Assembly (NCBI GenBank): GCA_017983615.1
Contig: JAGOBB010000002.1
Location: 176,928 to 240,927, forward strand
DNA length: 64,000 nt
Reading direction: 5' to 3'
From: Azonexus sp.
GTDB lineage: Bacteria > Pseudomonadota > Gammaproteobacteria > Burkholderiales > Rhodocyclaceae
The stretch's first letter is position 1. Each line of letters begins with the position of its first letter. Positions 14,981 to 60,312 of the stretch are shown in pieces. A model generated the notes under the pieces. That model was not told where the DNA came from and ran no database searches. It saw only the letters and a program-made list of their open reading frames with translations. The translations under genes were made by a program, and so were the position numbers.

Positions 14981-15778
14981 TTGAAAAATGCCCTGAAAAC
15001 ACTGCTGACCGTAGCATTTTCCCTGTGGATGGGCGTTGCGGCCGCGCAGCAGATGGAAATCATCGAACTGCGCAGCAAGAGCGTCGACGAAGTGTTGCCG
15101 GCGCTGCTGCCGCTGGTCGAACCGGGCGGCACGCTGAGCGGCATGAACAACCAGCTTTTCCTCAAAGCCTCGCCGCGTAACCGCGACGAGATCAAGCGGG
15201 CGCTGGCTGCCATCGACAAGCCGGCGCGGCGGCTGATCATCCGCGTCTCGCAGAATCGCCAGGCCGAGGATAGCGCGCGCGGCGGCGAGGCGAGCGGTCA
15301 GGTCGTGCTGGGCAGTACCCGGCGCAGCAACGTCGAAGCCCGTGTCTGGGACACCAAAAGCGTGCGCGGCGAAAGCGCGGCGCAGATGGTGCAGACCGTC
15401 GACGGCGGCCAGGCCTTCATCCAGGTCGGGCGCTCGCTGGCGATTCCGATGCGTCAGGTCGTCGTAGGACCGGGTGGGGCGGTGGTCAACGAAGGCTACG
15501 TTTATCAGGATGTCGGCCGCGGGTTTTACGCTGTGCCGCGTGTCAACGGCCAGCGGGTGACCCTGGATATCAGCCAGCAGTCGGCCAGTCAGGGCGGCTA
15601 CGGCAGCATCAACCAGCAGCGCCTGTCGACGACGGTATCCGGGCGGCTGGGCGAATGGATAGAACTTGGCGGCAGCGGCCGTCAGGCCAGCGGCAATCAG
15701 GGCGGCGCGCTCAGTCTTTCAACGAGCGACGCGCGTGACAATCGCTCCATCTGGTTAATGGTGGAGGAAGTGCAGTGA
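14981..15778 (+). CDS. Secretin-domain (short N-type) exported protein of unknown role
   Basis: About 265 aa. The N-terminus is a signal peptide (LLTVAFSLWMGVAAAQQ). It is followed by a secretin short domain of the type found in type II/III secretion and pilus secretins (MEIIELRSKSVDEVLPALLPL, then NQLFLKASPRNRDEIKRALAAID). The rest lacks a secretin barrel, so this is not a pore. I chose TTG 14981, which has GAGG eight bases upstream. A candidate uptake-sequence copy overlaps codons 2-13, inside the signal peptide. Its stop overlaps the next gene's start (GTGA). It may assist a pilus or secretion system, but the sequence gives no partner. Confidence 0.7.
   Translation: MKNALKTLLTVAFSLWMGVAAAQQMEIIELRSKSVDEVLPALLPLVEPGGTLSGMNNQLFLKASPRNRDEIKRALAAIDKPARRLIIRVSQNRQAEDSARGGEASGQVVLGSTRRSNVEARVWDTKSVRGESAAQMVQTVDGGQAFIQVGRSLAIPMRQVVVGPGGAVVNEGYVYQDVGRGFYAVPRVNGQRVTLDISQQSASQGGYGSINQQRLSTTVSGRLGEWIELGGSGRQASGNQGGALSLSTSDARDNRSIWLMVEEVQ
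14985..15018 (-). repeat. Candidate DNA-uptake-type repeat, copy 1
   Basis: An exact core (AATGCTACGGTC on the minus strand, 15007-15018) is followed by a TTTT tract at +8 to +11 and ATTTTT at +18 to +23. It lies in the signal peptide codons of the secretin-domain gene, read in the gene as L-T-V-A-F. It lacks the GGCC pairs seen in other copies but keeps the two A/T tracts. Confidence 0.8.
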
Positions 15779-16020
15779 GCGATTTGAAGCGACATATCGG
15801 GCAAAAGGTGGCGCTGGCAACAGCGGTGTTCTGCGCCCTGCTGGCCCTGCCGGCCTTCGGCTTGTTCGTCTGGCTGTGGATGGAACGCGGGCTGGCCGAT
15901 ACCTGGGTGCCGAGCGCGCTGGCGGCGGTTGGCTTCCTGGGGGCCTGCACGGTGGTGCTCTACGTGATCAGCCGGCCGCAGCCGCCGCTGCCCGAGGAGA
16001 ATGCTACGGTCGATGCCTAA
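15775..16020 (+). CDS. Small two-helix membrane protein, unknown function
   Basis: 81 aa with two predicted membrane helices (about residues 12-36 and 46-66) and a short proline-rich tail. The start GTG overlaps the preceding stop (GTGA), so it is translationally coupled to the secretin-domain gene. The last residues (ENATVDA) are encoded by an uptake-type repeat copy that runs on through the stop codon. I do not recognise a family. Confidence 0.65.
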   Translation: MSDLKRHIGQKVALATAVFCALLALPAFGLFVWLWMERGLADTWVPSALAAVGFLGACTVVLYVISRPQPPLPEENATVDA

Positions 16021-16033
16021 AAAGGGCAAAAAT
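16000..16033 (+). repeat. Candidate DNA-uptake-type repeat, copy 2
   Basis: Exact core AATGCTACGGTC at 16000-16011, TAAAAA at +7 to +12 and AAAAAT at +17 to +22. It spans the stop codon of the small membrane protein, and the TAA stop is formed by the first A/T tract. Confidence 0.85.
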
Positions 16034-16035
16034 CA

Positions 16036-16063
16036 AAAAACCCGGCGGCAGGCCGGGTTTTTT
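16036..16063. terminator. Bidirectional terminator between convergent genes
   Basis: Stem CCCGGC / GCCGGG (16041-16046, 16052-16057) flanked by AAAAAA on the left and TTTTTT on the right. It can terminate both the plus-strand secretin-domain unit and the minus-strand histidine kinase gene. Confidence 0.88.
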
Positions 16064-16071
16064 ATTGCGCG

Positions 16072-19641: not shown

Positions 19642-19678
19642 AATACTACGCCTTTTGTAATAGATGCGGTGTGCGGTC

Positions 19679-19706
19679 GAAAAAAAACCCGGCTTGGGGC
19701 CGGGTT
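19679..19706 (-). terminator. Rho-independent terminator of metY
   Basis: On the minus strand AACCCGGC / GCCGGGTT forms an 8-bp stem with a 5-base loop, followed by a run of T. It lies 20 bases after the metY stop and overlaps the upstream region of the kinase gene. Confidence 0.9.
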
Positions 19707-19725
19707 CCATCGGGATGCCGTTCGG

Positions 19726-21009
<1,284 letters not shown>

Positions 21010-21078: not shown

Positions 21079-22992
21079 CTACGCGCTGTCGTCGGTTTCA
21101 GCCGCCGGCTGGCGCGCTGCCTTGAGCAGGAAACGGCCGGGATCGAGGGCGTCAACCAGGTCGCGCTCCAGCGGCAAGGGCTCGCCTTCGAGCAGGCTGA
21201 CCAGCAGGTCGGCCATCAGCGCCGACCAGACGATGCCGCGTGCCCCGAAGCCTTGCACACACCACAGCCCGGGTTGGCGGGGAATGTTGTGCAGGCGGGT
21301 ATTGGGCGTCGCAGCGGCAAGGTCGGGCACGGCGCCGACGATAGGCAGGCGGTCCGGCGACATCGGCCGGAAGCCGACGCGGCCGGTCAGCGTCGCGGGG
21401 TCGAGGCCGGCCGCGAAATCGGGCAGGGTCAGGCGCAGGCGGGCCAGGTTGTCGGCGTGGTCGGCGATCCGTTCGGCGGTCTCGTCGTCCTCGTAGGACA
21501 GCGAGGCGCCGATCAGGCGGACGCCGTCAACCTCAGGCATCGCGTAGCCGATCTGGAACAGCACGGCGTTCAGCGCCGGTGCGGTGGCAGCGGGCAGGTG
21601 GCTGACCTGGCCGCGCCCTGCGCGCTGCGGCAGCCAGGCGAATTGTTCGAAGCGCGGCGCCACGACGCCGCTGGCCATGACCAGCACCGGCGCTTCGGCC
21701 AGCACGCTGCCGTCGGCGGCCAGCGCCTGCCATTCTGATTTTGGCCTTTTTAGAAGGGCGACCGTAGCATTCGTGCGAACCGTGATTCGTTCGGGAAAAG
21801 CGGCCAATGCGGCGCGGCAGACCGAGGGCGGTTGCACCCAGCCGCCCCCCGGGAACCACCAGCCGCCGATGTTGACCGCCTGGCCGAGCCGCTGGCTGGC
21901 CTCATCCTTGTCGACGAATTGCAGGAGTTCGGGCGGGAAACCGAGTTGCTCGACGGTGCGCCGCTGCTGCGACTCATGCGCCGGTTCGCGGGCCAGATGC
22001 AGTACGCCGCAGGGCGACCAGCGGGCCCCGGGCAGGCCGGCGAGTAGGGCGCGGGTGGCCATGAAGCCGGCCCGGGTCAGCCGGGAAAGACGGTTGTCGT
22101 CGGCGCTGGGCAGCGGCCGCAGCATGCCGGCCAGGTTGCTGGAGGCGCCCTGGCCCGGATCGCCGGCCTGTTCCAGCACGGTAACCTGCCAGCCGGCGGC
22201 GGCCAGCGCGTAGGCGGTGGTGCTGCCGGCGATGCCGGCACCGATGATGATCGCCCGACGATCGGTCGGCACGACATGGCGCTCCGGCCGGCGCGACCGG
22301 AAGCGGCCGACCAGCATCTGCCGCTTGTTGGCATAGCCGGGTCGTTTCTCGACGTCGAACTCGGCGTCCTTCAGCGCCTGGCGGACATGCCCAGCCACCG
22401 TCCAGGTCGCCAGCGTGGCGCCCGGCGCAGTCAGGCGGGCCAGGCCCTTGCAGAAATGCGGCGACCACAGCTCGGGGTTCTTCGGCGGCGAAAAGCCGTC
22501 GAGGAAAAATGCGTCGACCGAGGCGTCGACGGCGCGCAGTTGCGTTGCGGCATCGCCAAAAACCAGCGTCAGGATCACCCGGCCGGCGTCGAGGTGGAGG
22601 CGGTGCATGCCGGGTACCAGCGGCGGCCATTTCTGCTGTAGCTCGGCCGCCAGTTCGGCGAATTCCGGCCAGGTCTGCTGGCAGGCGGCGAGGTCGTCGG
22701 CCGTGAACGGGTGCTTCTCAAAGGAGACGAAATGCAGCCGCCGGCAGCGCTGCGGATCGTCCCGCCAGGCCTGCCAGGTGGTCAGGAAGTTCAGCCCGGT
22801 GCCGAAGCCGGTTTCGAGGATGACGAAGCGTTCCCGGCCTTGCCAGCGCTGCGGCAGTTCGTTGCCGCCAAGAAAGACATGCCGGGCCTGCGCCGGGCCG
22901 CCGAGGGCCGAGTGGTAGACATCGTCGAAGGCCGCGGAGTATGGCGTGCCGTAGGCAACCCGTTCAAGGCGGGCGGGCTGCAGTTTTTCCAC
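21079..22992 (-). CDS. mnmC: Bifunctional tRNA 5-methylaminomethyl-2-thiouridine biosynthesis protein MnmC
   Basis: About 637 aa. The N-terminal methyltransferase domain has [14 protein letters not shown], the SAM motif [12 protein letters not shown] and [17 protein letters not shown]. The C-terminal FAD-dependent demodification domain begins with [17 protein letters not shown] and ends with [16 protein letters not shown]. Together they convert cmnm5s2U to mnm5s2U at the tRNA wobble position. GTG 22992 overlaps the stop of the upstream gene (TAGTG), which fixes the start. An uptake-type repeat copy encodes residues 408-419 in a variable stretch between conserved FAD-domain blocks. Confidence 0.93.
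21738..21771 (-). repeat. Candidate DNA-uptake-type repeat, copy 3
   Basis: Exact core at 21760-21771 (minus orientation), TAAAAA at +8 to +13, GGCC at +14 to +17 and AAAAT at +18 to +22. It lies inside mnmC and reads [12 protein letters not shown]. Confidence 0.9.
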
Positions 22993-33911: not shown

Positions 33912-36900
33912 ATGAACAATATGCTGACCATCGACGGCAATGAAGCTGTCGCCAACGTGGCTTACCGCGTTTCTGAAGTGATCGCCATTTACCCGATCAC
34001 CCCTTCCTCCGGCATGGGGGAGCTGTCCGACGAATGGGCGGCGCAAGGCAAGACGAATGTCTGGGGATGCATTCCCCGCGTCGTCGAACTGCAGTCCGAA
34101 GGGGGGGCCGCCGGCACTGTCCATGGCGCACTGCAGGCCGGTTCTCTGGCGACGACCTTTACGGCATCGCAGGGCCTGTTGCTGATGATCCCCAACATGT
34201 ACAAGATCGCCGGTGAACTGACGCCGACGGTCTTCCATGTTGCCGCCCGCGCCGTGGCGACACATGCGCTGTCCATTTTCGGCGACCATTCCGACGTGAT
34301 GGCCACCCGCGGTACGGGCTTTGCGCTGCTCGCCTCCAATTCAGTGCAGGAAGCGCAGGACATGGCCGCCATCGCCTCGGCCGCGACGCTGGCCGGGCGC
34401 CTGCCGGTGCTACATTTCTTCGACGGCTTCCGCACCTCGCACGAAGTGGCGAAGATCAAGGCGGTTGGCGACGAGGTGTTGCAGAAAATGCTGCCACAGG
34501 ACCTGGTCGCGGCCCAGCGTCACCGGGCCCTGTCGCCCGAACACCCGGTGCTGCGCGGCAGTTCGCAGAACCCGGACGTTTTCTTCCAGGCCCGCGAGGC
34601 GCAGAACCCCTGGTTTGATGCCTTCCCGGATGTCGTTCAGCAGGCCATGGATCAGTTTGCCGAGGCGACCGGCCGACAGTACAAGCTGTTCGATTACGTC
34701 GGCGCGCCGGATGCCGAGCGCGTCATCGTGATGATGGGCTCCGGGGCGGAAACAGCTCAGGAAACTGTCGAGCACATGAACCGCCAGGGCGAAAAGGTCG
34801 GCCTGCTCAAGGTCCGCCTTTACCGGCCATGGGCACCGGAAGCGCTGCTCGCCGCACTGCCGGCGACGACCCGGGCGATTGCCGTGCTCGACCGCTGCAA
34901 GGAACCGGGCGCCGACGGCGAGCCGCTGTTCAAGGACGTCATGGTCGCGCTGGCCGAGAATGCCGCCAGCGACTCACCGCGTTTTGCCGTGCTGCCCAAG
35001 GTGGTGGCCGGGCGTTACGGGCTGGCCTCCAAGGAGTTCAACCCGGCGATGGTTTTTGCCGTTTTTTTGGGCCTGACCGTAGCATTTCCCAAGCGCCGCT
35101 TCACGGTGGGCATCAACGACGATGTGACGCATCTGTCGCTGCCCTACGACCCCGCCTTCCGCACCGACGCGGTTCGCGAAACCTTTGGCGCGGTGTTCTA
35201 CGGCCTGGGTTCGGACGGCACCGTGTCGGCCAACAAGAATTCGATCAAGATCATCGGTGACGAAACCGAGCTCTACGCCCAGGGCTACTTCGTCTATGAC
35301 TCCAAGAAATCGGGGGCGATGACGGTATCGCACCTGCGTTTCGGGCCGCAGCCGATTCGCTCGACGTACCTGACCGGCGAGGGCGATGCAAAATTCGTCG
35401 CATGCCATCAACCCCTGTTCCTCGAAACCCATGACCTGCTGTCCCACGCCGCGCCAGGGGCGGTCTTCCTGCTCAATACGCCAGTGCCGCCCGATCAGGT
35501 CTGGGCAACCCTGCCGGCGGCGATGCAGCGGCAGATGGTCGCCAAGCGCATCCGGTTTTATGTCATCGACGCCTATCAGGTCGCGCTCGAAGCCGACATG
35601 GGGCGGCGCATCAACACCGTCATGCAGACCTGCTTCTTCGCCATTTCCGGCATCCTGCCGCAGGACGAAGCGATTGCTGCGATCAAGCATGCCGTGGAAA
35701 AAACCTATGGTCGCAAGGGGCGGCGGATTGCCGAACTGAACTACCGAGCCATCGACAAGACGCTGGTCTGTCTGCACGAAGTGCCGGTACCGGCTGAGTT
35801 CGCAGCCACCGACATTCGCGTTCCCGAACGCACTGCCCGGCAAGCCTCGGAATTCGTCCGCAAGCTGACGTTGCCGATGATCGCCGGCAAGGGCGACAGC
35901 CTGCCGGTATCGCTGTTCCCGGTCGACGGCACCTTCCCGACCGGCACGGCCAAGTACGAAAAGCGCAATCTGGCGCTGCAGATTCCGGTCCTTGAAACCG
36001 ATTTGTGCACGCAGTGCGGCAAATGCGTTTTCGTCTGTCCGCATTCGGCCATTCGGGCCAAGACCTATCCCGCCGAACTGGGCGAAGCGGCACCGCAGTC
36101 CTTCAAGCAGATGGCCATCCGCAGCAAGGATTACCCGGCCGGCTGGAAGATGAGTTACCAGGTAGCGCCGGAGGATTGCACCGGCTGCACGCTGTGCGTC
36201 GAAGTCTGCCCGATCCGCGACAAGTCAAACGCCTCGCGCAAGGCGCTGAACATGGCCGAGCAGCCTCCGCTGCGCGTGCAGGAAGCCGAGAACTGGGATT
36301 TCTTCCTGAAACTGCCCGATTACGACCGCACGGTAGCCAAGCGCAACACCATTCCCGGCTCCATGCTGCTGCAACCGATGTTCGAATTTTCCGGGGCCTG
36401 TGTCGGCTGCGGCGAGACGCCCTACATTCGACTCGCCACCCAGTTGTTCGGCGACCGCATGCTGGTCGCCAATGCCACCGGTTGCTCATCGATCTACGGC
36501 GGCAATCTCCCCACCACGCCGTACACCACCGACGCAAACGGGCGCGGCCCGGCGTGGAGCAATTCGCTGTTCGAGGACAACGCCGAGTTTGGTCTCGGCA
36601 TGCGACTGGCGACCGACAATCTGGCCGAGGCGGCACGCGTTCAGTTACGCGCCATGGCACTGGAAATCGGCGATGCCCAGGTTCAGGCCTTGCTCAATGC
36701 CGACCAGCGTACCGAGGCCGGCATCCAGGAGCAGCGCGCGCGGGTTTCTCAACTCCAGGCCAAATTGTCATCCATTGCCACACCGGCCGCCGACCGGCTG
36801 GCCGCCGTGGCCGAATACCTGATCCGGCGCAGCGTGTGGATCATCGGCGGCGACGGCTGGGCCTACGACATCGGTTTCGGCGGCCTCGATCACGTGCTCT

Positions 36901-39507: not shown

Positions 39508-41208
39508 TTATTCCAGGTGTTCGACCATCAACTGCGGGCTTTCGACGCCCATGTATTCGTTGATCGCCAGCCGGTAGGCTAGACGCGTGCGGTTGCCGGG
39601 CTGGGTGCTGAAGTTGAACTGGATGGCGTCGATGCGCGTGTTGCCTTTGCGTAGCCGCAGCTTCAGGTGTTTTTCCTTGAGCACGCGTTGCTGTTCGACG
39701 TCGAATTCGTCCATGAACAGCGGTGCCGGGAAGCCCTGGCCCCAGATTTCGTTTTCCAGCAGCCGGGCGGTTTCCAGCGAGATGTAGCCGCCTTCGAGGT
39801 TGCCGTCGGTTTCCAGTGTGCGGGTCAGGTCGGCCGGGGCGAGCAGTTCGCCAGCGACCTGGGCGAACAGGGATTTGAATTTTTCGAAATTTTCGGCATG
39901 GACCGTAGCACCGGCGGCCATGGCGTGGCCGCCGAAGCGGATGAGCAGGCCGGGGGCGCGCTTGGCGACGAGGTCGAGGGCATCGCGCAGGTGCAGTCCG
40001 GGAATCGAGCGGCCGGAACCCTTGACGATGCCGCCTTCGCCGGGGGCGAAGGCGAAGACCGGGCGGTGCAGCTTGTCCTTGATGCGCGAGGCGAGAATGC
40101 CGACGACGCCTTCATGCCAGCTTTCGTCGAACAGCGCGATGCCAGGGGTGGCGTCGTTGGCGTCCAGCGATTCGAGCAGAGCCAGCGCCTGTTCCTGCAT
40201 GCCGGCCTCGATTTCGCGGCGTTCGCGGTTCAGGGTATCGAGTTGCTGGGCAATCGTTAGCGCACGGGTCGGGTCGTCGGTGAGCAGGCATTCGACGCCG
40301 AGGCGCATGTCGGCCAGCCGGCCGGCGGCGTTGAGGCGCGGCCCGAGCAGGAAACCGAGGTCGAAGGCGGTGGCGCGTTTCGGGTCGCGGGCGGCGGCCT
40401 TGAACAGGGCGGCGATGCCGGGCTGCATCTGGCCGGAGCGCATGCGCTTCAGGCCCTGGCTGACCAGGATGCGGTTGTTGCGGTCGAGCTTGACGACGTC
40501 GGCGACGGTGCCCAGCGCCACGAGGTCGAGCAGGTTGGCGAAGTTGGGTTCCGGGCGCTCGGCAAAATAGCCGCGTTCGCGCAGTTCGGCACGCAGGGCG
40601 AGCATGACGTAGAACATGACGCCGACGCCGGCGATGCATTTGGACGGGAAGTTGCAGCCGGGCTGGTTGGGATTGACGATGCAGTCGGCGGCCGGCAGCG
40701 AATCTGGCGTCGACCCGGCCGGTAGGTGGTGGTCGGTGATCAGCGTCGCGATGCCGTGCTGCTGGGCGCGGGCGACACCTTCGAGGCTGGCGATGCCATT
40801 GTCGACGGTGATGATCAGGTCGGGCGACTGCCCGGCGGCGACGTCGACGATTTCCGGCGACAGGCCGTAGCCGAGCTTGAAGCGGTCGGGGAGCAGGAAA
40901 TCGACGTCAGCGCCGAGCGCCTTCAGCGCCCGCATGCCGACCGCCGTGGCGGTGGCGCCGTCGCAGTCGTAGTCGCCGATGATCAGCATCTTCGCCTCGG
41001 CCTCGATGGCGTCGGCCAGCAGCTGGGCGGCGTCGGTGGCATGGGTCAGCGATGCCGGCGGCAGCAGCGACTTGAGTTCGTAGTCGAGTTCGGCCTTGTC
41101 GGTGACGCCGCGGGCGGCGTAGAGGCGGGCTAGCAGCGGGTGCAGGCCCTGTTGTTCGAGTTGCCAGACGACGCGCGGCGGGCTGCTGCGGGTGGTGAGC
41201 TTGGTCAC
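39508..41208 (-). CDS. recJ: Single-stranded-DNA-specific exonuclease RecJ
   Basis: 566 aa. DHH-family motifs are intact: IIGDYDCDGATAT (motif I), ITVDNGIASLE, TLITDHHLPAG, LGPRLNAAGRLADMR, and the DHHA1 motif RFGGHAMAAGATV. It degrades single-stranded DNA 5' to 3' in recombination and repair, and can act on incoming single strands. GTG 41208 has AGGAAG six bases upstream and overlaps the stop of the upstream rpfE-like gene (GTGA). A degenerate uptake-type core lies in codons around residue 433, directly after the GGHAMAAG motif. Confidence 0.95.
   Translation of the reverse strand: MTKLTTRSSPPRVVWQLEQQGLHPLLARLYAARGVTDKAELDYELKSLLPPASLTHATDAAQLLADAIEAEAKMLIIGDYDCDGATATAVGMRALKALGADVDFLLPDRFKLGYGLSPEIVDVAAGQSPDLIITVDNGIASLEGVARAQQHGIATLITDHHLPAGSTPDSLPAADCIVNPNQPGCNFPSKCIAGVGVMFYVMLALRAELRERGYFAERPEPNFANLLDLVALGTVADVVKLDRNNRILVSQGLKRMRSGQMQPGIAALFKAAARDPKRATAFDLGFLLGPRLNAAGRLADMRLGVECLLTDDPTRALTIAQQLDTLNRERREIEAGMQEQALALLESLDANDATPGIALFDESWHEGVVGILASRIKDKLHRPVFAFAPGEGGIVKGSGRSIPGLHLRDALDLVAKRAPGLLIRFGGHAMAAGATVHAENFEKFKSLFAQVAGELLAPADLTRTLETDGNLEGGYISLETARLLENEIWGQGFPAPLFMDEFDVEQQRVLKEKHLKLRLRKGNTRIDAIQFNFSTQPGNRTRLAYRLAINEYMGVESPQLMVEHLE
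39879..39912 (-). repeat. Degenerate uptake-type repeat in recJ
   Basis: Core GGTGCTACGGTC (10 of 12 matches, 39901-39912 on the minus strand) is followed by GAAAATTT at +7 to +14 and AAAAATT at +17 to +23. The tract positions agree with the exact copies, although the reading frame is also constrained by the conserved RecJ motif. Confidence 0.45.
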
Positions 41209-42293
41209 GATGCGCTTCCTTCGGTCTGCTCTTCGGCCAGGGCCTTGGCCAGATCGGCCAGCGGCCGGCTCTGGCGCCAGAATTTCCAGCGGTCTGTTCC
41301 ATTCAGCGTCCAGCTCAGCTGGCCGTAGATGGTCGGAGCGACGATGGTCAGGGTATCGATTTTGCGGCCGAGTTCGGCGCGCAGCGGCAGGAACCAGTCG
41401 CGCTCCAGGGCCGCCCAGGCATTGCGCCAGTCCTCGCCGTTTTCGTAGAGCACCGGCGGCAACAGGCTGTCGAGGACGACCAATTGCGCGGTGTGTTGGT
41501 CGGCGTCTGCCAGCAGGCCGTTGAGGCCGGAGGGGCAGGGCGGCGATTCTATGCCGCTGGCGGAGGCCAGGCCGGTCGCCAGCGGGTTGTCGCTCCAGGC
41601 GGCGGCGAACTCCGGCGGCGGCACTTCGGGCAGCGGCCCGCCACCCCACAGCCACAGGCTGTTGACGGCAGGTTTGCCGGCGGCCTGCCGACGTTCGTTG
41701 ACCGGGTGGCCGTGCAGGAACATCTGCACTTCGTTGAGCCAGCGTGTCAGCGGGCCGTTCTTGTCGGTCAGTTCGCTGTCCAGGCGGCGGCCGGCGATTT
41801 TTGAAATTGGCTCGGAAAAATGCTCGACCGTAGCATTTAGTTTCAGGTACCAGCGGCGGGCCGTGGCGATGTAAAAAATACCTACATCGGCGAACTGGAC
41901 GTTCAGCGCGGCGACCAGTGCGTGGGCTTCGTCGTCGTCCAGATCGAAGGCGCCGGCGTCGGCGAGGATGATGCGTTCGTGGTGGAAGCGCAGGTGCACC
42001 GGGTCGGCGCACAGCCAGTGACCGGAACGGGCTTGTTCGCCGTTACCCTCGCCGAGCAGGCGCAGGGCGCCGAAGGGGGCATCGTCGAGACCGAACTGGC
42101 GGGCGAGGGCAGTTTCGAAAGGCGTTTTGGGCTGGCGCGCGAAGGCGGCATGGCTGGCCAGCCATTCGAAGCCCGGTGCCGCCAGTTTCCCGAGGGTCAG
42201 TTGGTCGTTCGGTTCAGGCCAGATCAGTTCGGGGACAAGCAGGGTGAGGCGCACGGGCAGCAGGCAGGGAATGGCGACCAAAAAGTGTACCAT
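41205..42293 (-). CDS. RpfE-like / cofactor-independent phosphoglycerate-mutase-like protein
   Basis: 362 aa, soluble. The N-terminal LTLLVPELIWPEPND, then HWLCADPVHLRFHHERIILAD and NSLWLWGGGPLP, match the family annotated as RpfE. That family lies upstream of recJ in Xanthomonas rpf clusters and related proteobacteria, and resembles the alkaline-phosphatase-fold phosphoglycerate mutases. The function is not established. Its stop overlaps the recJ start. The start could be ATG 42293 or GTG 42254. An uptake-type repeat encodes residues 153-164 (N-A-T-V-E-H-F). Confidence 0.7.
   Translation of the reverse strand: MVHFLVAIPCLLPVRLTLLVPELIWPEPNDQLTLGKLAAPGFEWLASHAAFARQPKTPFETALARQFGLDDAPFGALRLLGEGNGEQARSGHWLCADPVHLRFHHERIILADAGAFDLDDDEAHALVAALNVQFADVGIFYIATARRWYLKLNATVEHFSEPISKIAGRRLDSELTDKNGPLTRWLNEVQMFLHGHPVNERRQAAGKPAVNSLWLWGGGPLPEVPPPEFAAAWSDNPLATGLASASGIESPPCPSGLNGLLADADQHTAQLVVLDSLLPPVLYENGEDWRNAWAALERDWFLPLRAELGRKIDTLTIVAPTIYGQLSWTLNGTDRWKFWRQSRPLADLAKALAEEQTEGSAS
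41804..41837 (-). repeat. Candidate DNA-uptake-type repeat, copy 5
   Basis: Exact core at 41826-41837 (minus orientation), TTTTT at +6 to +10 and AATTT at +18 to +22. The GGCC elements are absent, yet the A/T tracts stay in place. It lies in the rpfE-like gene. Confidence 0.85.
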
Positions 42294-46335: not shown

Positions 46336-46872
46336 TCAGGACCTGAGCTTCCGGCGCCGCCGCCAGGCGGCGATCAGATAAATTCGCCACGCGGCCTGCG
46401 TGGCGAAATAGCCCAGCAAGGCCAGCCCGCAGGCCAGCGTGAGCAGGCCGATACCCAGCGGTTTGGCGACGGCCAGCATCCATGCCTGCATCGCCGTCGT
46501 CCAGGCAACCATGTCGGTCGGGTTGAACGCCGGTGGTGTGATGAAACCATTGCCGTCGCCCAGGAACAGGCGTCCGATCTGATAAGCCGCCAGATAGAGC
46601 GGCACGATGGTGAACGGGTTGGTATAGAGCGTCACCAGCAGGGCCAGCGGCAGGTTCACACGGAAGACCAGTGCGCAGATGGCAGCACCGAGCATTTGCA
46701 GCGGCCCGGGAATCAGCCCGCAGAACAGCCCGGCAGCGACGGCACCGGCCGCCGAATGGCGGTTCAGGTGCCATAGCCGCGGGTGCAACAGCGACGACTC
46801 GAAGGGGCGCAACCAGCGGTTGCGGCGGATCGTTTCGTGATTGGGCAGGTATTTTTTCAGGGTCCGGCGCAT
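46336..46872 (-). CDS. DUF2062 membrane protein
   Basis: 178 aa. The N-terminus is basic (MRRTLKKYLPNHETIRRNRWLRPF), followed by LHPRLWHLNRHSAAGAVAAGLFCGLIPGP and further helices. This is the DUF2062 pattern (a small inner-membrane protein of unknown role). It is divergent from comEC with only 17 bases between the start codons, so the two promoters must overlap the coding ends. It is convergent with the NIT chemoreceptor, three bases apart. Confidence 0.85.
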   Translation of the reverse strand: MRRTLKKYLPNHETIRRNRWLRPFESSLLHPRLWHLNRHSAAGAVAAGLFCGLIPGPLQMLGAAICALVFRVNLPLALLVTLYTNPFTIVPLYLAAYQIGRLFLGDGNGFITPPAFNPTDMVAWTTAMQAWMLAVAKPLGIGLLTLACGLALLGYFATQAAWRIYLIAAWRRRRKLRS

Positions 46873-46889
46873 ATGCTTATTATTGCAGC

Positions 46890-49217
46890 ATGCGTCTGAA
46901 TATTCTCGCTTTCGCCGCTGGCATCCTGGCGCTGCAGATGCAGCCGGAACTGCCTGCCTGGGCGCCATGGGCGATCGGCGGCTTACTTCTGGCGCTGCCG
47001 GGCTTACGCTGGCGGAACTGGCCGGTGCGCCTGCTGGCGGTTGCCGGGTGCTGCGCGCTGGGATTTTCCGTCGCCGCATGGCGAGCAGACATCCGCCTGA
47101 CCGATCAGCTCGATGCTGCCGGGGAGGGCCAGGATGTCGAGGTGGTCGGCGTTATCGCCAGCCTGCCGCAGGATTTCAGCCATGGCACCCGCTTTGAATT
47201 CGATTTGGATTTTGGCCAAAAAAACGGGCCGACCGTAGCATTTGCCGTTCCTTCGCGTGTCATGCTCTCGTGGTACCAGGGGCGGCGGGACGACGAGCAG
47301 TTCGAGCGCCGGCCGGTGCGTCCTGGTGAGCGATGGCGCTTCACTGTGCGCCTGAAGCGGCCGCACGGCAATGCCAATCCCGGTGGCTTCGACTACGAGG
47401 CCTGGCTGCTCGAACGCAATGTCCGGGCGACCGGCTATGTCCGCCCGAACCCGCCGCAACGGTTGAGCGAAATGGTCTGGCGGCCGGATTACGCCATCGA
47501 ACGTCTACGCTTCAACATCCGTGCCTCGTTCGCCCGCCTGCTGCCGGAAGAATTCTATCCGTGGGCCGGCGTCCTGGTCGCGCTGGCGGTGGGTGACCAG
47601 AAGGCGATCAATGGCGATCTGTGGACTACCTTCAACCGTACCGGGACGACCCATCTGATGTCGATTTCCGGGCTGCATGTGACGATGGTTGCAGCCCTGT
47701 TCGGCTGGCTGGTGTCATTCGGCTGGCGCCGTTCGCCGCGCCTGGCGCTGGCGCTGCCGGCCCAGAAGGCCGGCCTGCTGGCCGCCTGCCTGGCAGCGCT
47801 TGTCTATGCCCTGCTTGCCGGCTTTGCTGTGCCGGCCCAACGCACCCTGATCATGATGCTGGTCGCCGCCGCGGCAATGCTCTCCGGACGTATCGTCGCG
47901 CCGAGCCGGATCTTGGCGCTGGCCTTGCTGGTCGTCTTGCTGGTTGACCCTTGGGCGATTTTGGCGGCGGGGTTCTGGCTCTCCTTCGGCGCCGTCGGTG
48001 CCTTGCTCTATGTTGGCTCGGCACAAGTCGGCGAGGCCGCCGGCTGGCGGGCGCGTCTGCGCTCGTGGGGCGTCGTTCAGTGGGCGGCGACGCTGGCCTC
48101 GCTGCCGATACTGTTGCTTGTCTTCCAGCAATTCTCGCTGGTCTCGCCGTTGGCCAACGCCGTGGCCATTCCTGTGGTCAGCTTCATCGTCACGCCGCTC
48201 GCGCTGCTCGGTGCGCTGGTCCCGTGGTGGCCGATCCTGGCGCTGGCGCATCAGGTCATGGCGTGGCTGATGCTGTTTCTCGAGTGGTGTGCTACCTGGC
48301 CGGTCTGGCTGGCGCCGGCGCCGCCATGGTGGGTGGCTGCTGCAGCCGGTGTTGGCGTCGCTGTCTGCCTGCTGCCGCGCGGTTTGCCCGGGCGCTGGCT
48401 GGGGGCCTTCCTGATCCTGCCGGCGCTGGCCTGGCCGGTGGCCCGGCCGGCCGAAGGGGAGGTGTGGGTTGATGTGCTCGACGTCGGGCAGGGCCTGGCC
48501 AGCGTGGTGCGGACGCGCGATCACACGTTGATCTACGACCCTGGCCCGCTCTACAGCGCCGAATCGGATGCCGGACAGCGCGTGGTCGTGCCCTACCTGC
48601 GCCATCTCGGCATCGACCGCGTCGACCTGCTGATGGTGACGCACCGCGACAGCGATCACTCGGGCGGTACGGTGTCGCTGCGGGCCGCGCTGGCCGTCGA
48701 CGAGGTCCGCTCGTCGTTGGCCGGACTGGGCCAGCCCTGCGTCGCTGGCCAGCGCTGGGTCTGGGATGGTGTCGCCTTCGCGGTGCTGCATCCAGCCGCC
48801 GAGGCCTATGCGGGTGAATCGAAACCCAACCATTTGTCCTGCGTGCTGCGTGTCGAGGCCGGCGGACGCAGGGTGTTGCTGACCTCCGACATCGAGGCGC
48901 CCGACGAGGCGGCACTGCTCCAGCGCTATCCCGGCGATCTGGCCGCCGACGTCATGCTGATGCCGCACCACGGCTCGAAGACTTCGTCCACACCCGATTT
49001 TCTCAAGGCCGTCGGGGCCGGCCAGGCGGTGATCCCGGTCGGCTATCGCAACCGCTTCGGGCACCCGAAAGACGAAGTGACGGTCCGTTACGAGGCCATG
49101 GGAACGCATCTCTGGCGAACCGACCGCGACGGTGCCGTGCGCATCGCACTCGACGGCAATGGCGTGAGCCTGTCCGGCTGGCGGCACGAACATCGCCGCT
49201 ACTGGCACGGCCGGTGA
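46890..49217 (+). CDS. comEC: DNA internalization channel protein ComEC/Rec2
   Basis: 775 aa. The N-terminal helices and OB-fold-like periplasmic region are followed by the competence domain with LVALAVGDQKAINGDLWTTFNRTGTTHLMSISGLHVTMVA and many membrane helices. The C-terminal metallo-beta-lactamase domain has LDVGQGLASVV, THRDSDHSGG and LMPHHGSKTSS, intact. It forms the inner-membrane channel for transforming DNA. An uptake-type repeat copy encodes residues 107-118 in the N-terminal periplasmic part. ATG 46890 is supported by the divergent neighbour. Confidence 0.95.
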   Translation: MRLNILAFAAGILALQMQPELPAWAPWAIGGLLLALPGLRWRNWPVRLLAVAGCCALGFSVAAWRADIRLTDQLDAAGEGQDVEVVGVIASLPQDFSHGTRFEFDLDFGQKNGPTVAFAVPSRVMLSWYQGRRDDEQFERRPVRPGERWRFTVRLKRPHGNANPGGFDYEAWLLERNVRATGYVRPNPPQRLSEMVWRPDYAIERLRFNIRASFARLLPEEFYPWAGVLVALAVGDQKAINGDLWTTFNRTGTTHLMSISGLHVTMVAALFGWLVSFGWRRSPRLALALPAQKAGLLAACLAALVYALLAGFAVPAQRTLIMMLVAAAAMLSGRIVAPSRILALALLVVLLVDPWAILAAGFWLSFGAVGALLYVGSAQVGEAAGWRARLRSWGVVQWAATLASLPILLLVFQQFSLVSPLANAVAIPVVSFIVTPLALLGALVPWWPILALAHQVMAWLMLFLEWCATWPVWLAPAPPWWVAAAAGVGVAVCLLPRGLPGRWLGAFLILPALAWPVARPAEGEVWVDVLDVGQGLASVVRTRDHTLIYDPGPLYSAESDAGQRVVVPYLRHLGIDRVDLLMVTHRDSDHSGGTVSLRAALAVDEVRSSLAGLGQPCVAGQRWVWDGVAFAVLHPAAEAYAGESKPNHLSCVLRVEAGGRRVLLTSDIEAPDEAALLQRYPGDLAADVMLMPHHGSKTSSTPDFLKAVGAGQAVIPVGYRNRFGHPKDEVTVRYEAMGTHLWRTDRDGAVRIALDGNGVSLSGWRHEHRRYWHGR
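47209..47242 (-). repeat. Candidate DNA-uptake-type repeat, copy 6 (inside comEC)
   Basis: Exact core at 47231-47242 (minus orientation), GGCCCG, seven T at +7 to +13, GGCC, and AAAAT at +18 to +22. It is inside comEC, read D-F-G-Q-K-N-G-P-T-V-A-F, and is one of the best-conserved copies including the GGCC flanks. Confidence 0.92.
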
Positions 49218-55200: not shown

Positions 55201-55201
55201 G

Positions 55202-55262: not shown

Positions 55263-55267
55263 TGCCC

Positions 55268-57349
55268 TCAGGCGCCGCCCAGCGTCACCATCAGTTCGCC
55301 CTGGGCGTTGTGCGGTTTGCTGCGCGACGAGCGGCGGCGCTGATAGCTGCCCTGGCTGTTCATTTCCCAGCCCTGCTGGTTGTCGGCCAGGTAAAACTTG
55401 AGGCCTTCGGTGATGACACGCTTTTTCAGCTTGGGGTCGAGGATCGGAAAGGCCAGTTCGATGCGCTTGAAGAAATTGCGCTCCATCCAGTCGGCGCTGG
55501 ACAGGTAGACGGTTTCCTTGCCGCCGGCCAGGAAGTAGAAGATGCGGTGGTGTTCGAGGAAGCGGCCGATGATGGAGCGGACGCGGATGTTCTCGGAGAG
55601 CCCCGGGACACCCGGACGCAGCATGCAGACGCCGCGGACGATCAGGTCGATTTCGACGCCGGCCTGCGAGGCTTCGTACATGGCGTTGATGACTTCGGGC
55701 TCGACCAGCGAATTCATTTTGGCGACGACGCGTGCCTTGCCGCCGGCGCGGGCGGTTTCGGCTTCGGCCTGGATGCCGGCGACGACGTTGGGTTGCAGCG
55801 TGAACGGCGCCTGCCACAGGTGCTTCAGCGTCCGCGCCTTGCCCAGCCCGGTCAGTTGCTTGAAGACTTCGCTGGTGTCGTGGGTGACTTCCTCGTTGGC
55901 GGTCAGCAGGCCGAAATCGGTGTACAGCCGGGCGGTGCGCGGGTGGTAGTTGCCGGTGCCGAGGTGGGCGTAGCGTTTGAGTCCGCCTTCTTCGCGGCGG
56001 ACGATCAACAGCGCCTTGGCGTGCACCTTGTAGCCGACGACGCCGTAAACCACGTGGGCGCCGACTTCTTCGAGCTTGGTCGCCCAGCTGATGTTGGCTT
56101 CCTCGTCAAAGCGTGCCATCAGCTCGACGACGACGGTGACTTCCTTGCCGTTCTGGGCGGCGCGGATCAGCGATTCCATCAGCACCGAGTCGGTGCCGGT
56201 GCGGTAGACAGTCATCTTGATGGCGACCACCTGCGGGTCGGTCGCCGCCTGGCTGAGGAACTCGATGACCGGCGCAAACGACTGGTAGGGGTGGTGCAAC
56301 AGGATGTCGCCCCGGCGGATGCTGTCGAAGATGTTGGCGCCCTTGGCCAGGCCCTTGGGGGTGCCCGGGGCGAAGGGCGGGAACTTCATGTCCGGGCGAT
56401 CCACCCAGTCCGGCACCTGCATCAGGCGGACCAGGTTCACCGGGCCATTGACGCGGTATAGATCGACCGGCTTGAGGTTGAACTGGGCGAGCAGGAAGTC
56501 GGTCATCGCCGGCGAGCAGTTCTCGGCGACTTCGAGGCGCACGGCGTTGCCGAAATGGCGTTGTGGCAGTTCGCCCTGCAGCTTGGTGCGCAGGTTAGTG
56601 ACTTCCTCTTCGTCGACGAAGAGGTCGGAGTTGCGCGTGGCGCGGAACTGGTAGCAGCCGAGCACGGTCATGCCGGTGAACAGCTCGCCGACGAATTCGT
56701 GCAGGATCGATGACAGGAAAACGAAGCCGTACTCGCAGCCGGCCAGTTCCTCGGGCAGGCGGATGACGCGTGGCAGCACGCGCGGCGCCTGCACGATGGC
56801 AGCGCCGGAACTGCGGCCGAAGGCGTCCTTGCCTTCGAGTTCGACGGCGAAATTGAGGCTCTTGTTGAGCACGCGCGGGAAGGGGTGTGACGGGTCGAGC
56901 CCGATCGGTGTCAGCACCGGCACCATTTCGCGGATGAAATAATTGCGGATCCACTCGCGTTGCGCTTCGTTCCAGCTGGCGCGGCGCAGGAAGCGGATTC
57001 CCTGTTCGGCCAGCGCCGGCAGGATGATGTCGTTGAGGTGTTCGTACTGCTCGGTGACGATGGCGTGCGCTTCGGCCGAAACGAGGCGGAAGGCTTCCTG
57101 AGCCGTCTTGCCGTCGGTCGTGACAACCGGCGTGTTAGCGCGGATCTGCTCCTTCAGGCCGGAGACGCGGATCTCGAAAAATTCGTCGAGATTGCTGGAA
57201 ACGATGCACAGGAAGCGCAGGCGTTCGAGCAGCGGCATGCGCTCGTTTTCGGCCTGGGCCAGCACGCGGCGATTGAAGGCCAGCAGGCCGAGTTCGCGGT
57301 TGAGATAGTTCTCGGTCGGGAAGCGGGGTTTTAGTTGTGCGTGGGTCAT
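55268..57349 (-). CDS. ppk: Polyphosphate kinase 1
   Basis: 693 aa; reversible synthesis of polyphosphate from ATP. The N-terminal NYLNRELGLLAFNRRVL, the active-site histidines in GYKVHAKALLIVRRE and AHLGTGNYHPRTARLYTDFGL, and the C-terminal MERNFFKRIELAFPILD are all present. ATG 57349 has GGAG upstream (TTG 57361 overlaps that site). Polyphosphate accumulation is a known trait of some Rhodocyclales. Convergent with the PEP-CTERM gene. Confidence 0.96.
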   Translation of the reverse strand: MTHAQLKPRFPTENYLNRELGLLAFNRRVLAQAENERMPLLERLRFLCIVSSNLDEFFEIRVSGLKEQIRANTPVVTTDGKTAQEAFRLVSAEAHAIVTEQYEHLNDIILPALAEQGIRFLRRASWNEAQREWIRNYFIREMVPVLTPIGLDPSHPFPRVLNKSLNFAVELEGKDAFGRSSGAAIVQAPRVLPRVIRLPEELAGCEYGFVFLSSILHEFVGELFTGMTVLGCYQFRATRNSDLFVDEEEVTNLRTKLQGELPQRHFGNAVRLEVAENCSPAMTDFLLAQFNLKPVDLYRVNGPVNLVRLMQVPDWVDRPDMKFPPFAPGTPKGLAKGANIFDSIRRGDILLHHPYQSFAPVIEFLSQAATDPQVVAIKMTVYRTGTDSVLMESLIRAAQNGKEVTVVVELMARFDEEANISWATKLEEVGAHVVYGVVGYKVHAKALLIVRREEGGLKRYAHLGTGNYHPRTARLYTDFGLLTANEEVTHDTSEVFKQLTGLGKARTLKHLWQAPFTLQPNVVAGIQAEAETARAGGKARVVAKMNSLVEPEVINAMYEASQAGVEIDLIVRGVCMLRPGVPGLSENIRVRSIIGRFLEHHRIFYFLAGGKETVYLSSADWMERNFFKRIELAFPILDPKLKKRVITEGLKFYLADNQQGWEMNSQGSYQRRRSSRSKPHNAQGELMVTLGGA

Positions 57350-57436
57350 CGCGCGCTCCAAGTGTTTTCTTAAGTATAGGCCTTAAGTCCATCATTTTGT
57401 TGCACTTATGTTGCAACTCGATGACAGTGGAGCGGC

Positions 57437-57470
57437 AATGCTACGGTCGGCCGGAAAAAACGGCCATTTT
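57437..57470 (+). repeat. Candidate DNA-uptake-type repeat, copy 8
   Basis: Exact core at 57437-57448, GGCCGG, AAAAAA at +7 to +12, CGGCC, ATTTT at +18 to +22. It is in the gap between the ppk start and the isochorismate synthase stop, which it touches. It is one of the most complete copies, with both GGCC flanks. Confidence 0.92.
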
Positions 57471-58810
57471 CAGGCGCTGCGGCTGGTGTCGCTGTCCGGC
57501 AGCGGACCGGGAGCCAGGGCGGCGAGCAGGGTGCCGAGCTTGGCCTCGGTTTCGGCCAGTTCGTGCCGCGGATCGGAGCCGGCGACGATGCCGGCGCCGG
57601 CTTGCAGTTCGGCACTGTTGCCGTCGATCAGCGCCGAGCGCAGGGCGACCGAAAATTCGCCGTCGCCGGCCGGGGTCAGCACGCCGAATCCACCGCTGTA
57701 CCAGCCGCTGCGCTGTTCGCCATGGGCAGCCAGCCAGTCCAGCGCAGCCGCTGCCGGGTAGCCGCCGACGGCTGGCGTTGGGTGCAGGGCGCGGACGACA
57801 TCGAACAGCCGGGTGCCCGGCCGTGCCTCGGCCGAAATCCGGCTGCGCCAGTGGGCGAGCAGGCCGGCAGGGTGTTCCTCAATGGCGCCGACGTGCGGCG
57901 GCGCCTCGCACAAGGGGGCAATGGCGTCGCAGATGGCGCGGACGACCAGCGACTGTTCATGCCGGTTCTTGCTTTCGGACAACGCTAGCGAGCCGGGCCA
58001 GGCGGTGCCGGCCAGCGCGTCGACGTCAATGTGCGCACCGCGCAGGCGGACCAGACGTTCTGGCGAGGCGCCGAGAAAGGTCTGCTGGCCGTTGCCATGG
58101 GCGTAGATGACGCCGCCGGGTTGTTGGGCGATCAAGCGGCCGAGGATGGTGGCCGGCGCGAAGGGGCCGCTGGCCTGGAGCTTCCGGCTGCGGCTGAGGA
58201 CCACCTTGGCGACGCGACCGGCCGCAATGTCGCGTAGCGCGGCGTTGACGCGGGCGATCCAGGCGCGGTCGTTGAGTGGTTCAGGCCGGCCGGGCAGCAA
58301 TTGTGGCGCCCCGGTCGCCGGCGGGCTGGCCAGCATGGGCAGCCATTCCGCTGTAGCCTGGGCCAGCCGCCCGGCCGGCGCACTGAGCGTGACCGAGCAG
58401 TCGCCGTCGATGCAGTGGAGCAGGATGGCCGGGATGGACAGCAAGGCGTTGGGTAGCGGCGCGTTGCTGGCGGCATCGAAGGCAAAACCGGCGAAGGCCA
58501 GGGCGGGGCCATTGTGCCGCCAGTGCCGGCAGAAACCGGCATAGGCGTTGTCGAGCGCCGCGAAACGGTGGGTGCCGGCCGTCGCCACATGCAGCGCGTG
58601 GCCAATGGCCAGCCGGTACTCGCAGCGATCCGGTCGGGCGCGGTACCAGTGGGGCTGGTGGGCTGGCAGCAGATCGAGCCAGTCGGTGTCGCAGCGGCCG
58701 AGCGGGAGATGCAGGCTGACCGGCGCCGAATCCGGTGCGCTGGCCGCCAGCGCCTGCAGGCGCGACAGGGTTTCGGGGGCGGTGAGCTGACGGCGCAGGG
58801 TGTGGATCAT
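57470..58810 (-). CDS. menF: Isochorismate synthase
   Basis: 446 aa of the chorismate-utilising family. The C-terminal catalytic domain shows VNAALRDIAAGRVAKVVLSRSR, FLGASPERLVRLRG, ALAGTAWPGSLALSESKNRHEQ (with the catalytic acidic region), HPTPAVGGYPAAAALDWLAAHG and GWYSGGFGVL. It converts chorismate to isochorismate. The nearby menE points to menaquinone rather than a siderophore. Its start overlaps a small upstream ORF (ATGA). Confidence 0.88.
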   Translation of the reverse strand: MIHTLRRQLTAPETLSRLQALAASAPDSAPVSLHLPLGRCDTDWLDLLPAHQPHWYRARPDRCEYRLAIGHALHVATAGTHRFAALDNAYAGFCRHWRHNGPALAFAGFAFDAASNAPLPNALLSIPAILLHCIDGDCSVTLSAPAGRLAQATAEWLPMLASPPATGAPQLLPGRPEPLNDRAWIARVNAALRDIAAGRVAKVVLSRSRKLQASGPFAPATILGRLIAQQPGGVIYAHGNGQQTFLGASPERLVRLRGAHIDVDALAGTAWPGSLALSESKNRHEQSLVVRAICDAIAPLCEAPPHVGAIEEHPAGLLAHWRSRISAEARPGTRLFDVVRALHPTPAVGGYPAAAALDWLAAHGEQRSGWYSGGFGVLTPAGDGEFSVALRSALIDGNSAELQAGAGIVAGSDPRHELAETEAKLGTLLAALAPGPLPDSDTSRSA

Positions 58811-59001
58811 CCTTGAAGCCTCATTTGGACGCGGCTGATGGTGCGTTTGGGCGGGATGGCCGGCGCGAAGGGACGACGTAGCAGGCTCGCGCCTGCAAGG
58901 AGGAACGCCAAAGCCGGACGCCCGACCAGACGTGCCAGCGGCCGCGTAGCGCCGTCACCCAACGGCTGAATCGCCTCGAAGGCACGAAGGTTTGTATTCA
59001 T
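58807..59001 (-). CDS. Small ORF coupled to menF, unknown function
   Basis: 64 aa from ATG 59001, basic and with one hydrophobic stretch (PALAFLLAGASLL). Its stop overlaps the menF start (ATGA) and it follows menE closely, so it may be a real coupled gene or a leader. No family recognised and no strong ribosome binding site. Confidence 0.4.
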   Translation of the reverse strand: MNTNLRAFEAIQPLGDGATRPLARLVGRPALAFLLAGASLLRRPFAPAIPPKRTISRVQMRLQG

Positions 59002-59046
59002 GCTGCTGGTCAATGAGGGATAAGTGGTCAAGTGAGGTTTCAAGGA

Positions 59047-60312
59047 TCATTGCTTTTCCCTACCGGCGATGCGGCGCAGGGCGGGGCGATCGAACTTGCC
59101 GGCGGCGTTGCGCGGCAGGCTGTCGAGACGGTGAAAGCGCCGGGGCTGGGCGGCTGAGGGTAGCTGCCGGCGGGCGTGTTCGAACAGATCGGCCGGCTCG
59201 ACCCGGCCGACGACCAGGGCGACGACGACGTCGCCCCAGACCGGGTCGGGCTGGCCGGTGACGGCAACGTCGTCGACGCCGGGGCAGGTGGCCAGGCGGG
59301 CCTCGACCTCCTGCGGGTGGACATTGCAGCCGCCGCTGATCAGCATGTCGTCGGCGCGGCCGAGTACGCTCAGCTGGCCGTCGGCATCGATGGCGCCGAG
59401 GTCGCCGGTGGTCAGCCAGCCGTCGCTGTCGACGCCGCTGCCGTCGGCGTAGCCGAGCATCACCTGAGGGCCGCGGAGGGCGATCCGGCCGTCTTCGCCG
59501 ATGCGGATTTCGTGGCTGGGCAGGAGGCGGCCGACCAGGTTTTCCCGCCACGGGCCGTCGTCCGGCGTGTGCGCCGCGATCAGGGCAGCGGTTTCGCTCA
59601 TCCCGTAGCTGACGACCAGCGGCCAGCCGGCCGCACTGGCCTTGTCGTAGAGCTGGCGCGACAGCGCGGCGCCGCCGATCAGCGCAACGCGCAGGCTGGC
59701 CGGCGGCCGGATGCCGAGATCGAGCAGCCGGGCCAGCATGGCGGGGACCAGCGAAATGTGGGTGACCGGGTGGGTAGCCAGATCGAAGGCGACGGCCGCA
59801 GCGACGAAGCCGTCGTGGAGCAGTGCGCCGGCGCCGGCCCGGGCGCAGCGCCAGAGGATGGCCTGGCCGCCGACGTGGTGGAGCGGCAGGCAGTTCAGCC
59901 ACAGGTCGCCGGGGCGCAGGCCGAGGCGTTGGTTGGCTGCGACCGCTGCTGCATCGAGCTGGGAATTGCCGAGGAGTACGGCGCGCGGCTGGCCTTCGCT
60001 GCCGCTGGTCGAAATGATCAGCGCGGTGTCGGGGGGAGGGCGGTCGATGCTTGGCGGCAGAATGCTACGGTCGGCCGGAAAAAAGGGCCTTTTTCGCAGG
60101 CTGCAGGCGCCGGCGAAGGCGGCCAGCTGCAGGCTGTCGCCGGTGCGGATCAACGGCGTTTCGGTGCCGTCGATCTGCCGACTCAGACCTTCGACATGAT
60201 CGAGCCAGTCGGCAAAGTCGTGGCGGCGACCGGCGCTGATCACGGCCGTCGCCTCCGGCATGGCGATGGCGGCGTGCTGCAGAAGTCCGGCGAGCGTGGC
60301 GGGGGCTGTCAT
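59047..60312 (-). CDS. menE: o-Succinylbenzoate-CoA ligase-like AMP-forming enzyme
   Basis: 421 aa. ANL-superfamily motifs are IISTSGSEGQPRAVLL (P-loop), VVSYGMSETAALIA (A5), DGWLTTGDLG and the hinge LGRADDMLISGGCNVHPQEVE, with the C-terminal catalytic Lys in NAAGKFDR. Length and pairing with isochorismate synthase favour MenE, which activates o-succinylbenzoate in menaquinone synthesis. ATG 60312 has TATAAT nine bases upstream and no Shine-Dalgarno. An uptake-type repeat encodes residues 73-84 (RKRPFFPADRSI). Confidence 0.8.
   Translation of the reverse strand: MTAPATLAGLLQHAAIAMPEATAVISAGRRHDFADWLDHVEGLSRQIDGTETPLIRTGDSLQLAAFAGACSLRKRPFFPADRSILPPSIDRPPPDTALIISTSGSEGQPRAVLLGNSQLDAAAVAANQRLGLRPGDLWLNCLPLHHVGGQAILWRCARAGAGALLHDGFVAAAVAFDLATHPVTHISLVPAMLARLLDLGIRPPASLRVALIGGAALSRQLYDKASAAGWPLVVSYGMSETAALIAAHTPDDGPWRENLVGRLLPSHEIRIGEDGRIALRGPQVMLGYADGSGVDSDGWLTTGDLGAIDADGQLSVLGRADDMLISGGCNVHPQEVEARLATCPGVDDVAVTGQPDPVWGDVVVALVVGRVEPADLFEHARRQLPSAAQPRRFHRLDSLPRNAAGKFDRPALRRIAGREKQ
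60061..60094 (+). repeat. Candidate DNA-uptake-type repeat, copy 9
   Basis: Exact core at 60061-60072, GGCCGG, AAAAAA at +7 to +12, GGGCC, TTTTT at +18 to +22. It is inside menE on the strand opposite the gene. Confidence 0.92.

Follow-up and report, generated by a model that had tools for sequence, protein, structure and literature searches.

What could be the function of a word that recurs along a chromosome in both orientations and is followed each time by two runs of A or T at fixed distances? This question is raised by a 64,000-nucleotide stretch of the genome of Azonexus sp. (assembly GCA_017983615.1, contig JAGOBB010000002.1, positions 176,928 to 240,927 of the forward strand), called the window below, in which the core GCTACGGTC occurs nine times (Table 1). 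One copy lies in comEC/rec2, whose product is the inner-membrane DNA channel of natural transformation. As inferred from its distribution, the motif is very probably a DNA uptake signal sequence for natural transformation.

G000, the genome from which the window comes (2,921,885 bases, 34 contigs, 86% complete), contains 468 copies of the 11-mer ATGCTACGGTC, 234 per strand, and none of the same word read backwards. The copies were profiled in 463,898 of these bases (the window and 399,898 bases from three contigs), which carry 82 of the 468 copies, 74 of them outside the window; a sample of 328,158 bases from the sister species G029 provided 40 more. Positions are numbered from the A of ATG as 1, so that the tracts that the original prediction had placed at +7 to +12 and +18 to +22 after the core occupy columns 18–23 and 29–33. 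The nine window copies agree with it: the second tract is 5/5 A/T in all of them and the first is 6/6 in five, 5/6 in two and 4/6 in two (15007 and 41826). The same holds across the genome, as the A/T frequency in the 74 copies outside the window reaches 0.928 in tract 1 (log10 P −132) and 0.957 in tract 2 (log10 P −126) against a background of 0.377. Both tracts (at least 5/6 and 4/5 A/T) are present in 68 of these 74 copies, and their centres are 10.5 bp apart, which confirms the spacing of about one DNA turn that had been proposed. The A/T frequency is only 0.176 before tract 1 and 0.200 between the tracts, and 0.36 and 0.33 in the outer flanks.

The alignment of the 82 copies reads A at column 0, then ATGCTACGGTC, GGCCSN at 12–17, A/T at 18–23, any base, GGCC at 25–28, A/T at 29–33, C/T, R and AAA at 36–38, i.e. 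a consensus of approximately AATGCTACGGTC-GGCCSN-(A/T)6-N-GGCC-(A/T)5-CR-AAA, and carries no information beyond about 40 bp. Two of its features go beyond the initial description, namely a third, shorter tract at 36–39 (A/T 0.703, log10 P −29 in the 74 copies) and the conservation of G/C at positions ahead of tract 1 and between the two main tracts. The profile of the 40 copies from G029 is much like that of G000; the pattern first guessed, GGCCAAAANNNNCGGT, gave no match. Exact copies of ATGCTACGGTC largely outnumber those with one mismatch (82 vs 15 in the 463,898 bp; 0 vs 7 for the reversed 11-mer). According to an excerpt of PMC1626085, such a predominance of perfect copies over those with a single mismatch is an attribute of both the uptake signal sequences (USS) of Pasteurellaceae and the DNA uptake sequences (DUS) of Neisseriaceae. 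The rarity of near-misses indicates a strong consensus.

The nature of the tracts appears to be constrained as well as their position. TpA is a flexible step, and runs of ApA or ApT type that lack TpA are typical of rigid A-tracts, whose minor groove is narrow. Tract 1 is entirely A/T in 59 of the 82 G000 copies and contains a TpA step in only 3 of these, compared with 274 of 554 isolated six-base A/T runs from the same DNA. Among the 66 copies whose tract 2 is entirely A/T, 4 TpA and 52 ApT steps were counted. In G029, 3 TpA steps were counted among 31 first tracts and none among 29 second tracts; seven genomes of dialect 2 have 10 such steps among 81 all-A/T tracts and 5 among 82. AAAAAA, AAATTT, ATTTTT and TTTTTT are common in the tracts, runs like TTTAAA are rare, and the core strand favours A in tract 1 (0.57–0.74). 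The near exclusion of TpA points to A-tracts and not to mere A/T-richness. It had been proposed that the position of the tracts is conserved rather than their base identity, and that a protein reads DNA bendability. The fixed position stands, whereas base identity turns out to be constrained, with A preferred on the core strand and TpA nearly excluded; the signal looks more like rigid A-tracts than like bendability in general. For H. influenzae, rigidity and a slight bend of the AT tracts have been suggested to aid uptake (PMC7811141).

Within the genus, the motif exists as several dialects. The exact ATGCTACGGTC is abundant only in G000 (468 copies) and G029 (328) among 60 genomes, the next being G003 with 10, and many further genus members match once two mismatches are allowed and the tracts are required. 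Counts of short words, and the tract-bearing copies, show that these species dialects share CGGTC and the same tracts: forms of ACGGTCAACCGG are found in G002, G012, G356, G370, G371 and G376, GCTGCGGTCRAC in G003, G014 and G034, GCGGTCGAC in G030 and G032, and CACGGTCGAC in G011, while G335 is mixed, with GCGGTC in 22 and ACGGTC in 12 of its 36 tract-bearing copies. Since these consensuses were drawn from copies already required to have tracts, a separate test selected copies on the nine-base core [AG]CGGTC[AG]AC alone. All 13 dialect genomes sampled then still showed the A/T excess in both tracts (log10 P from −12.9 down to −65), with A/T frequencies of 0.55–0.79 for tract 1 in 12 of them and 0.69–0.94 for tract 2 in all 13; tract 1 is weak in G032 (0.43). 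No copy with both tracts was found in the motif-poor G035, G018, G016 and G027, which have only 6, 6, 4 and 1 core words, respectively. In genomes of the CGGTCGAC dialect, some copies stand back to back, with the palindrome CGGTCGACCG as their overlap (Table 1).

A search for CGGTCR followed by both tracts in 76 genomes of the genus gave 143–511 matches in 16, 11–80 in 27 and 0–9 in 33 (reversed controls, at most 5). Other genera of the family have at most 8 matches, within the range of the controls (285 genomes, 67 genera). With the narrower pattern CGGTCRAC, which matches only 8 times in G000 itself, at most 2 matches were found outside the genus in 393 genomes of a 399-genome sample of the order, seven of which also belong to the family set. 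The motif is thus restricted to the genus within the samples and patterns searched, patterns that would miss uptake signals with another core. Among the matches listed in public contigs (at least 75 stretches), 29 come from JAHRYW (Betaproteobacteria bacterium AG28), whereas CAIXSK, a third species (uncultured beta proteobacterium, Loclat bin), accounts for 41. Contigs whose titles name Omnitrophota, Chitinophagaceae, Lachnospiraceae and Proteobacteria (L122, L130, L139, L159) have one match each, by chance or mis-binning. In viral contigs, a 14-base form was found three times, including two near-identical places with full tracts (L175, L176); these two are perhaps host DNA beside a prophage.

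The motif is nearly absent from two elements within comEC, in G370 (43.3 kb) and G002 (33.7 kb), with a GC content of 0.56 and 0.52. They have 0 and 1 matches to CGGTCR with tracts vs 8.3 expected for both together (P 0.002), and the single match is without the dialect core. Together the elements have one occurrence of ACGGTCAAC vs 28 in 160 kb elsewhere in the same genomes. In the sample of G000, the copies are spaced more evenly than random ones (the 78 gaps have a coefficient of variation of 0.66, compared with 0.96 on average in 5,000 simulations; P 0.0004). This even spacing, together with the hundreds of copies and the phasing of the A-tracts, would also fit binding sites of a nucleoid protein, or of one that organises the chromosome, whose binding requires both a core and phased A-tracts. 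Such sites are nevertheless an unlikely explanation, as the copies are equal on both strands, the core varies between relatives, 33 of the 76 genus members have almost no match and the comEC elements nearly lack the motif; moreover, protein-binding sites are usually looser in consensus, according to an excerpt of PMC1626085 that concerns regulatory sites.

The location of the copies relative to genes, as predicted by a simple home-made gene caller, bears on two further explanations. Among the 82 G000 copies, 37 are wholly within genes, 12 extend over a gene end and 33 lie between genes, i.e. 45 reach outside predicted genes although 85% of the sampled DNA is coding. A by-product of restriction, of replication bias (Chi- or KOPS-like) or of codon usage would be a short over-represented word, as is the core, but it would account neither for a partly degenerate design of 40 bp nor for an intergenic enrichment, and the two strands have equal numbers when counted over the whole genome; this origin is therefore very improbable. 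Intergenic copies are denser in convergent than in divergent DNA (12 in 12.6 kb and 4 in 11.6 kb, respectively, in G000; 6 in 7.0 kb and 2 in 12.1 kb in G029, where 19 of 34 copies are in genes), which is not promoter-like.

How copies arise can be examined at the pyruvate:ferredoxin oxidoreductase (PFOR) gene, which carries the window copy 35075. The PFOR stretch was matched in 43 of the 76 genus genomes and compared in 30, the 13 left out including no motif-rich member; the motif-rich G003, G034, G376 and G377 gave no match. A copy lies at the same codons in all 12 motif-rich genomes among these 30 loci, as ATGCTACGGTCAG in G000, G029 and G380, as CYACGGTCAACCGG in G002, G335, G356, G359, G360, G362, G370 and G371, and as TGACGGTCAACCGG in G012. 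The form at this site is the one common elsewhere in the genome for G000, G029, G002, G012, G356, G370 and G371; G335 is mixed and the dialect of G359, G360 and G362 is known from the PFOR site alone. Of the 10 intermediate genomes, 8 have CGGTCAAC there, and CGGTC is absent from 7 of the 8 motif-poor ones, the eighth (G375) having CGGTCAAC without tracts. Motif-rich genomes cluster in a PFOR tree of the 30 genomes built without the motif region: their state requires 3 changes, compared with a mean of 9.6 after shuffling, and a single change accounts for the ATGCTACGGTC form versus the others among rich genomes. The spacer that spans the site has 85 bases in 27 loci, including all 12 rich ones, and 88 in the other three, whether the motif is present or not, and no motif-sized insertion was found in the 30 loci. 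The picture, drawn from one site in depth, is that copies would arise by substitution in place and be lost, and not be inserted. comEC does not provide a second orthologous site: the copies of G000 and G029 occupy one site, and those of G002 and G370 are 12 bp away, as judged from the shared flank.

A long motif with a strong consensus could also look like a multiplied element, such as a small mobile or REP-like repeat. The lack of any motif-sized insertion at the PFOR site (one coding site in depth) and the end of the information at about 40 bp make this scarcely credible. Operators of a global transcription factor, with which the copies that reach outside genes would agree, deserve equally little credence, given the 37 of 82 copies wholly within genes, the higher density in convergent than in divergent DNA and the 468 exact cores.

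The preferred reading, an uptake signal, can be compared with the systems already known. An excerpt of PMC12616744 (2025) gives Neisseriaceae and Pasteurellaceae as the only families known to have such signals. No report of an uptake signal in another family was found in the open-access literature, a search that leaves out most subscription papers and preprints, and among the open-access papers listed for the motif strings (20 of 26), none is on uptake by its title. Like the Pasteurellaceae USS (Hin-USS AAGTGCGGT, Apl-USS ACAAGCGGT), the motif has a strict core that contains CGGT, two 3' A/T tracts about one turn apart, an apparent preference for rigid tracts, dialects, an origin by mutation and both genic and intergenic copies. 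It differs from them by another core, a tract spacing of 10.5 instead of 12, G/C blocks between the tracts, a third short tract, a betaproteobacterial host and a lower density. In addition, its first tract is at +7 to +12 vs +2 to +7 in Hin-USS (derived from the numbering in an excerpt of PMC1626085), i.e. about 5 bp further from the core. With the Neisseriaceae DUS, it shares a betaproteobacterial host, hundreds of copies or more, and dialects, whereas DUS is a continuous word without tracts, as described in excerpts of PMC1626085 and PMC12616744. In the 463,898 bp, the Hin-USS core is absent (reversed control, 4) and the Apl-USS core occurs 3 times (reversed control, 16), and the DUS word GCCGTCTGAA occurs once (reversed control, 0; other DUS dialects were not searched). 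By its core, the motif thus belongs to neither the USS nor the DUS forms searched, and it would work like a Haemophilus-type uptake signal. The original prediction had drawn the parallel with the Haemophilus signal, which the sequence data support through the copy number in both orientations, the consensus, the tracts, the substitution in place, the even spacing and the dialects.

Competence genes are widespread in the genus. In addition to comEC in the window, G000 has comEA and dprA elsewhere, and a GspH-type minor pilin. Of the 76 genomes, 75 have a ComEC match, which is above cut-off in 68; 67 have a ComEA match above cut-off and 69 a GspH-type pilin, and DprA was found in 24 of the 25 searched. 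In view of these counts, the presence of ComEC, ComEA, DprA or GspH was rejected as a separator of motif-rich from motif-poor genomes.

Several observations weigh against an uptake signal. First, ComEC, ComEA and DprA, being also present in motif-poor members, are not discriminating. Second, 9 of the 76 genomes gave no ComEA match above cut-off, including the motif-rich G335 (complete), G362, G380 and G003, which counts against uptake unless a diverged ComEA serves there. Third, the motif-rich G370, G002 and G029 have comEC in separated pieces, and G360 has it in two adjacent frames, which would have to be taken as a recent loss. Fourth, the density of about 1 per 6 kb is below that of Haemophilus and Neisseria (about 1 per kb, according to an excerpt of PMC1626085). 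Fifth, no pair of exact cores at most 200 bp apart exists in the G000 sample, although USS and DUS often occur as inverted pairs, according to an excerpt of PMC12616744. Sixth, the numbers of TpA steps predicted from column frequencies (47 for tract 1, 30 for tract 2) are inflated by the homopolymer-like character of the tracts, ApT in tract 1 being also below its expectation (18 vs 62); the comparison with isolated runs is therefore fairer. Finally, a minor-pilin cassette fits the dialect in G000/G029 and in G002/G370/G371 and differs in G362 and G335.

This type IV pilin cassette encodes a PilE-like protein and GspH, with PilW- and PilY1-like proteins recognised by eye (L303–L310, L313, L316); its neighbours are presumably ispH or argD. 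The cassette pilins are 78–91% identical within G002/G370/G371 and within G000/G029 and about 28–55% between others, the identities of G362 being void in this comparison as its GspH protein was classed as pilE. As a receptor, the PilE-like and GspH cassette thus fits five genomes and not G362 or G335, and remains a weak lead.

Regarding comEC itself, its pieces are 20–65 kb apart on one contig in G002, G005, G018, G259, G350, G370, G374 and G384 (L297–L301), and the breaks in these eight genomes do not all fall at the same point of the gene, which would suit a recurrent integration site. The longest core-free gap of the window (622–15006, about 14.4 kb) extends from a CTACGGTC word at 614 to the copy at 15007.

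Table 1. Motif copies and comEC/rec2 in the window, and back-to-back copies in other genomes of the genus.
Feature	Position	Strand	Core start	Context
Motif copy	14979..15018	-	15007	Core GCTACGGTC at 15007-15015; near start of secretin-domain open reading frame (ORF) 14957-15778 (+)
Motif copy	16000..16039	+	16003	Overlaps 3' end of ORF 15775-16020 (+)
Motif copy	21732..21771	-	21760	Within mnmC (21079-23106, -)
Motif copy	35047..35086	-	35075	Within PFOR gene 33912-37538 (+); orthologous site compared in 30 genomes
Motif copy	39873..39912	-	39901	Within ORF 39667-40260 (+), which has no Pfam match; copy has GTGCTACGGTC, with another base for the first A of the 11-mer
Motif copy	41798..41837	-	41826	Within ORF 41205-42293 (-), weak, below-cut-off similarity of phosphoglycerate-mutase type
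Motif copy	47203..47242	-	47231	Within comEC
Motif copy	57437..57476	+	57440	Between ppk1 (55268-57361, -) and isochorismate-synthase-type gene (57470-58810, -); 7-base overlap with 3' end of the latter
Motif copy	60061..60100	+	60064	Within menE-like acyl-CoA ligase gene 59047-60363 (-), below menE cut-off
comEC/rec2	46671..49217	+		Open frame; TIGR00361 359 bits (cut-off 190); Pfam Competence, DUF4131, Lactamase_B
Back-to-back copies	G206:C1:1812575-1812616			
Back-to-back copies	G008:C9:756655-756696			
Back-to-back copies	G031:C2:96933-96974			
Back-to-back copies	G353:C1:2524382-2524423			

Taken as a whole, the following model can be proposed, in which uptake, receptor, reading of shape and drive are inferred. 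A candidate receptor at the cell surface, on the type IV pilus machinery for uptake, would read the core by its sequence and the helically phased A-tracts by their shape (narrow groove and rigidity). Self-DNA would thereby be captured, then imported by ComEA and ComEC and recombined by RecA. As DNA with a better signal would be taken up more often, point-mutated copies would spread by recombination and reach hundreds per genome. A shift in the specificity of the receptor would lead to the conversion of the copies, and hence to dialects, and the loss of specific uptake would let the copies decay.

These data make it likely that a third, independent lineage of self-DNA recognition has converged on the grammar of Haemophilus, a core containing CGGT followed by helically phased rigid A-tracts, with several dialects, weak or decaying states and losses in one betaproteobacterial genus. 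The occurrence of 0–511 matches and several dialects in 76 genomes would make a surface protein that reads a tract-bearing signal testable by coevolution, and suggests that members of the genus could be transformable with tagged DNA. A third lineage with the Haemophilus-type layout and another core would show which features are general, namely a strict core with phased A-tracts behind it, and which are specific to a lineage. If this is true, the A-tract code would be a general solution for drawing DNA into the type IV pilus pore and not a peculiarity of Pasteurellaceae.

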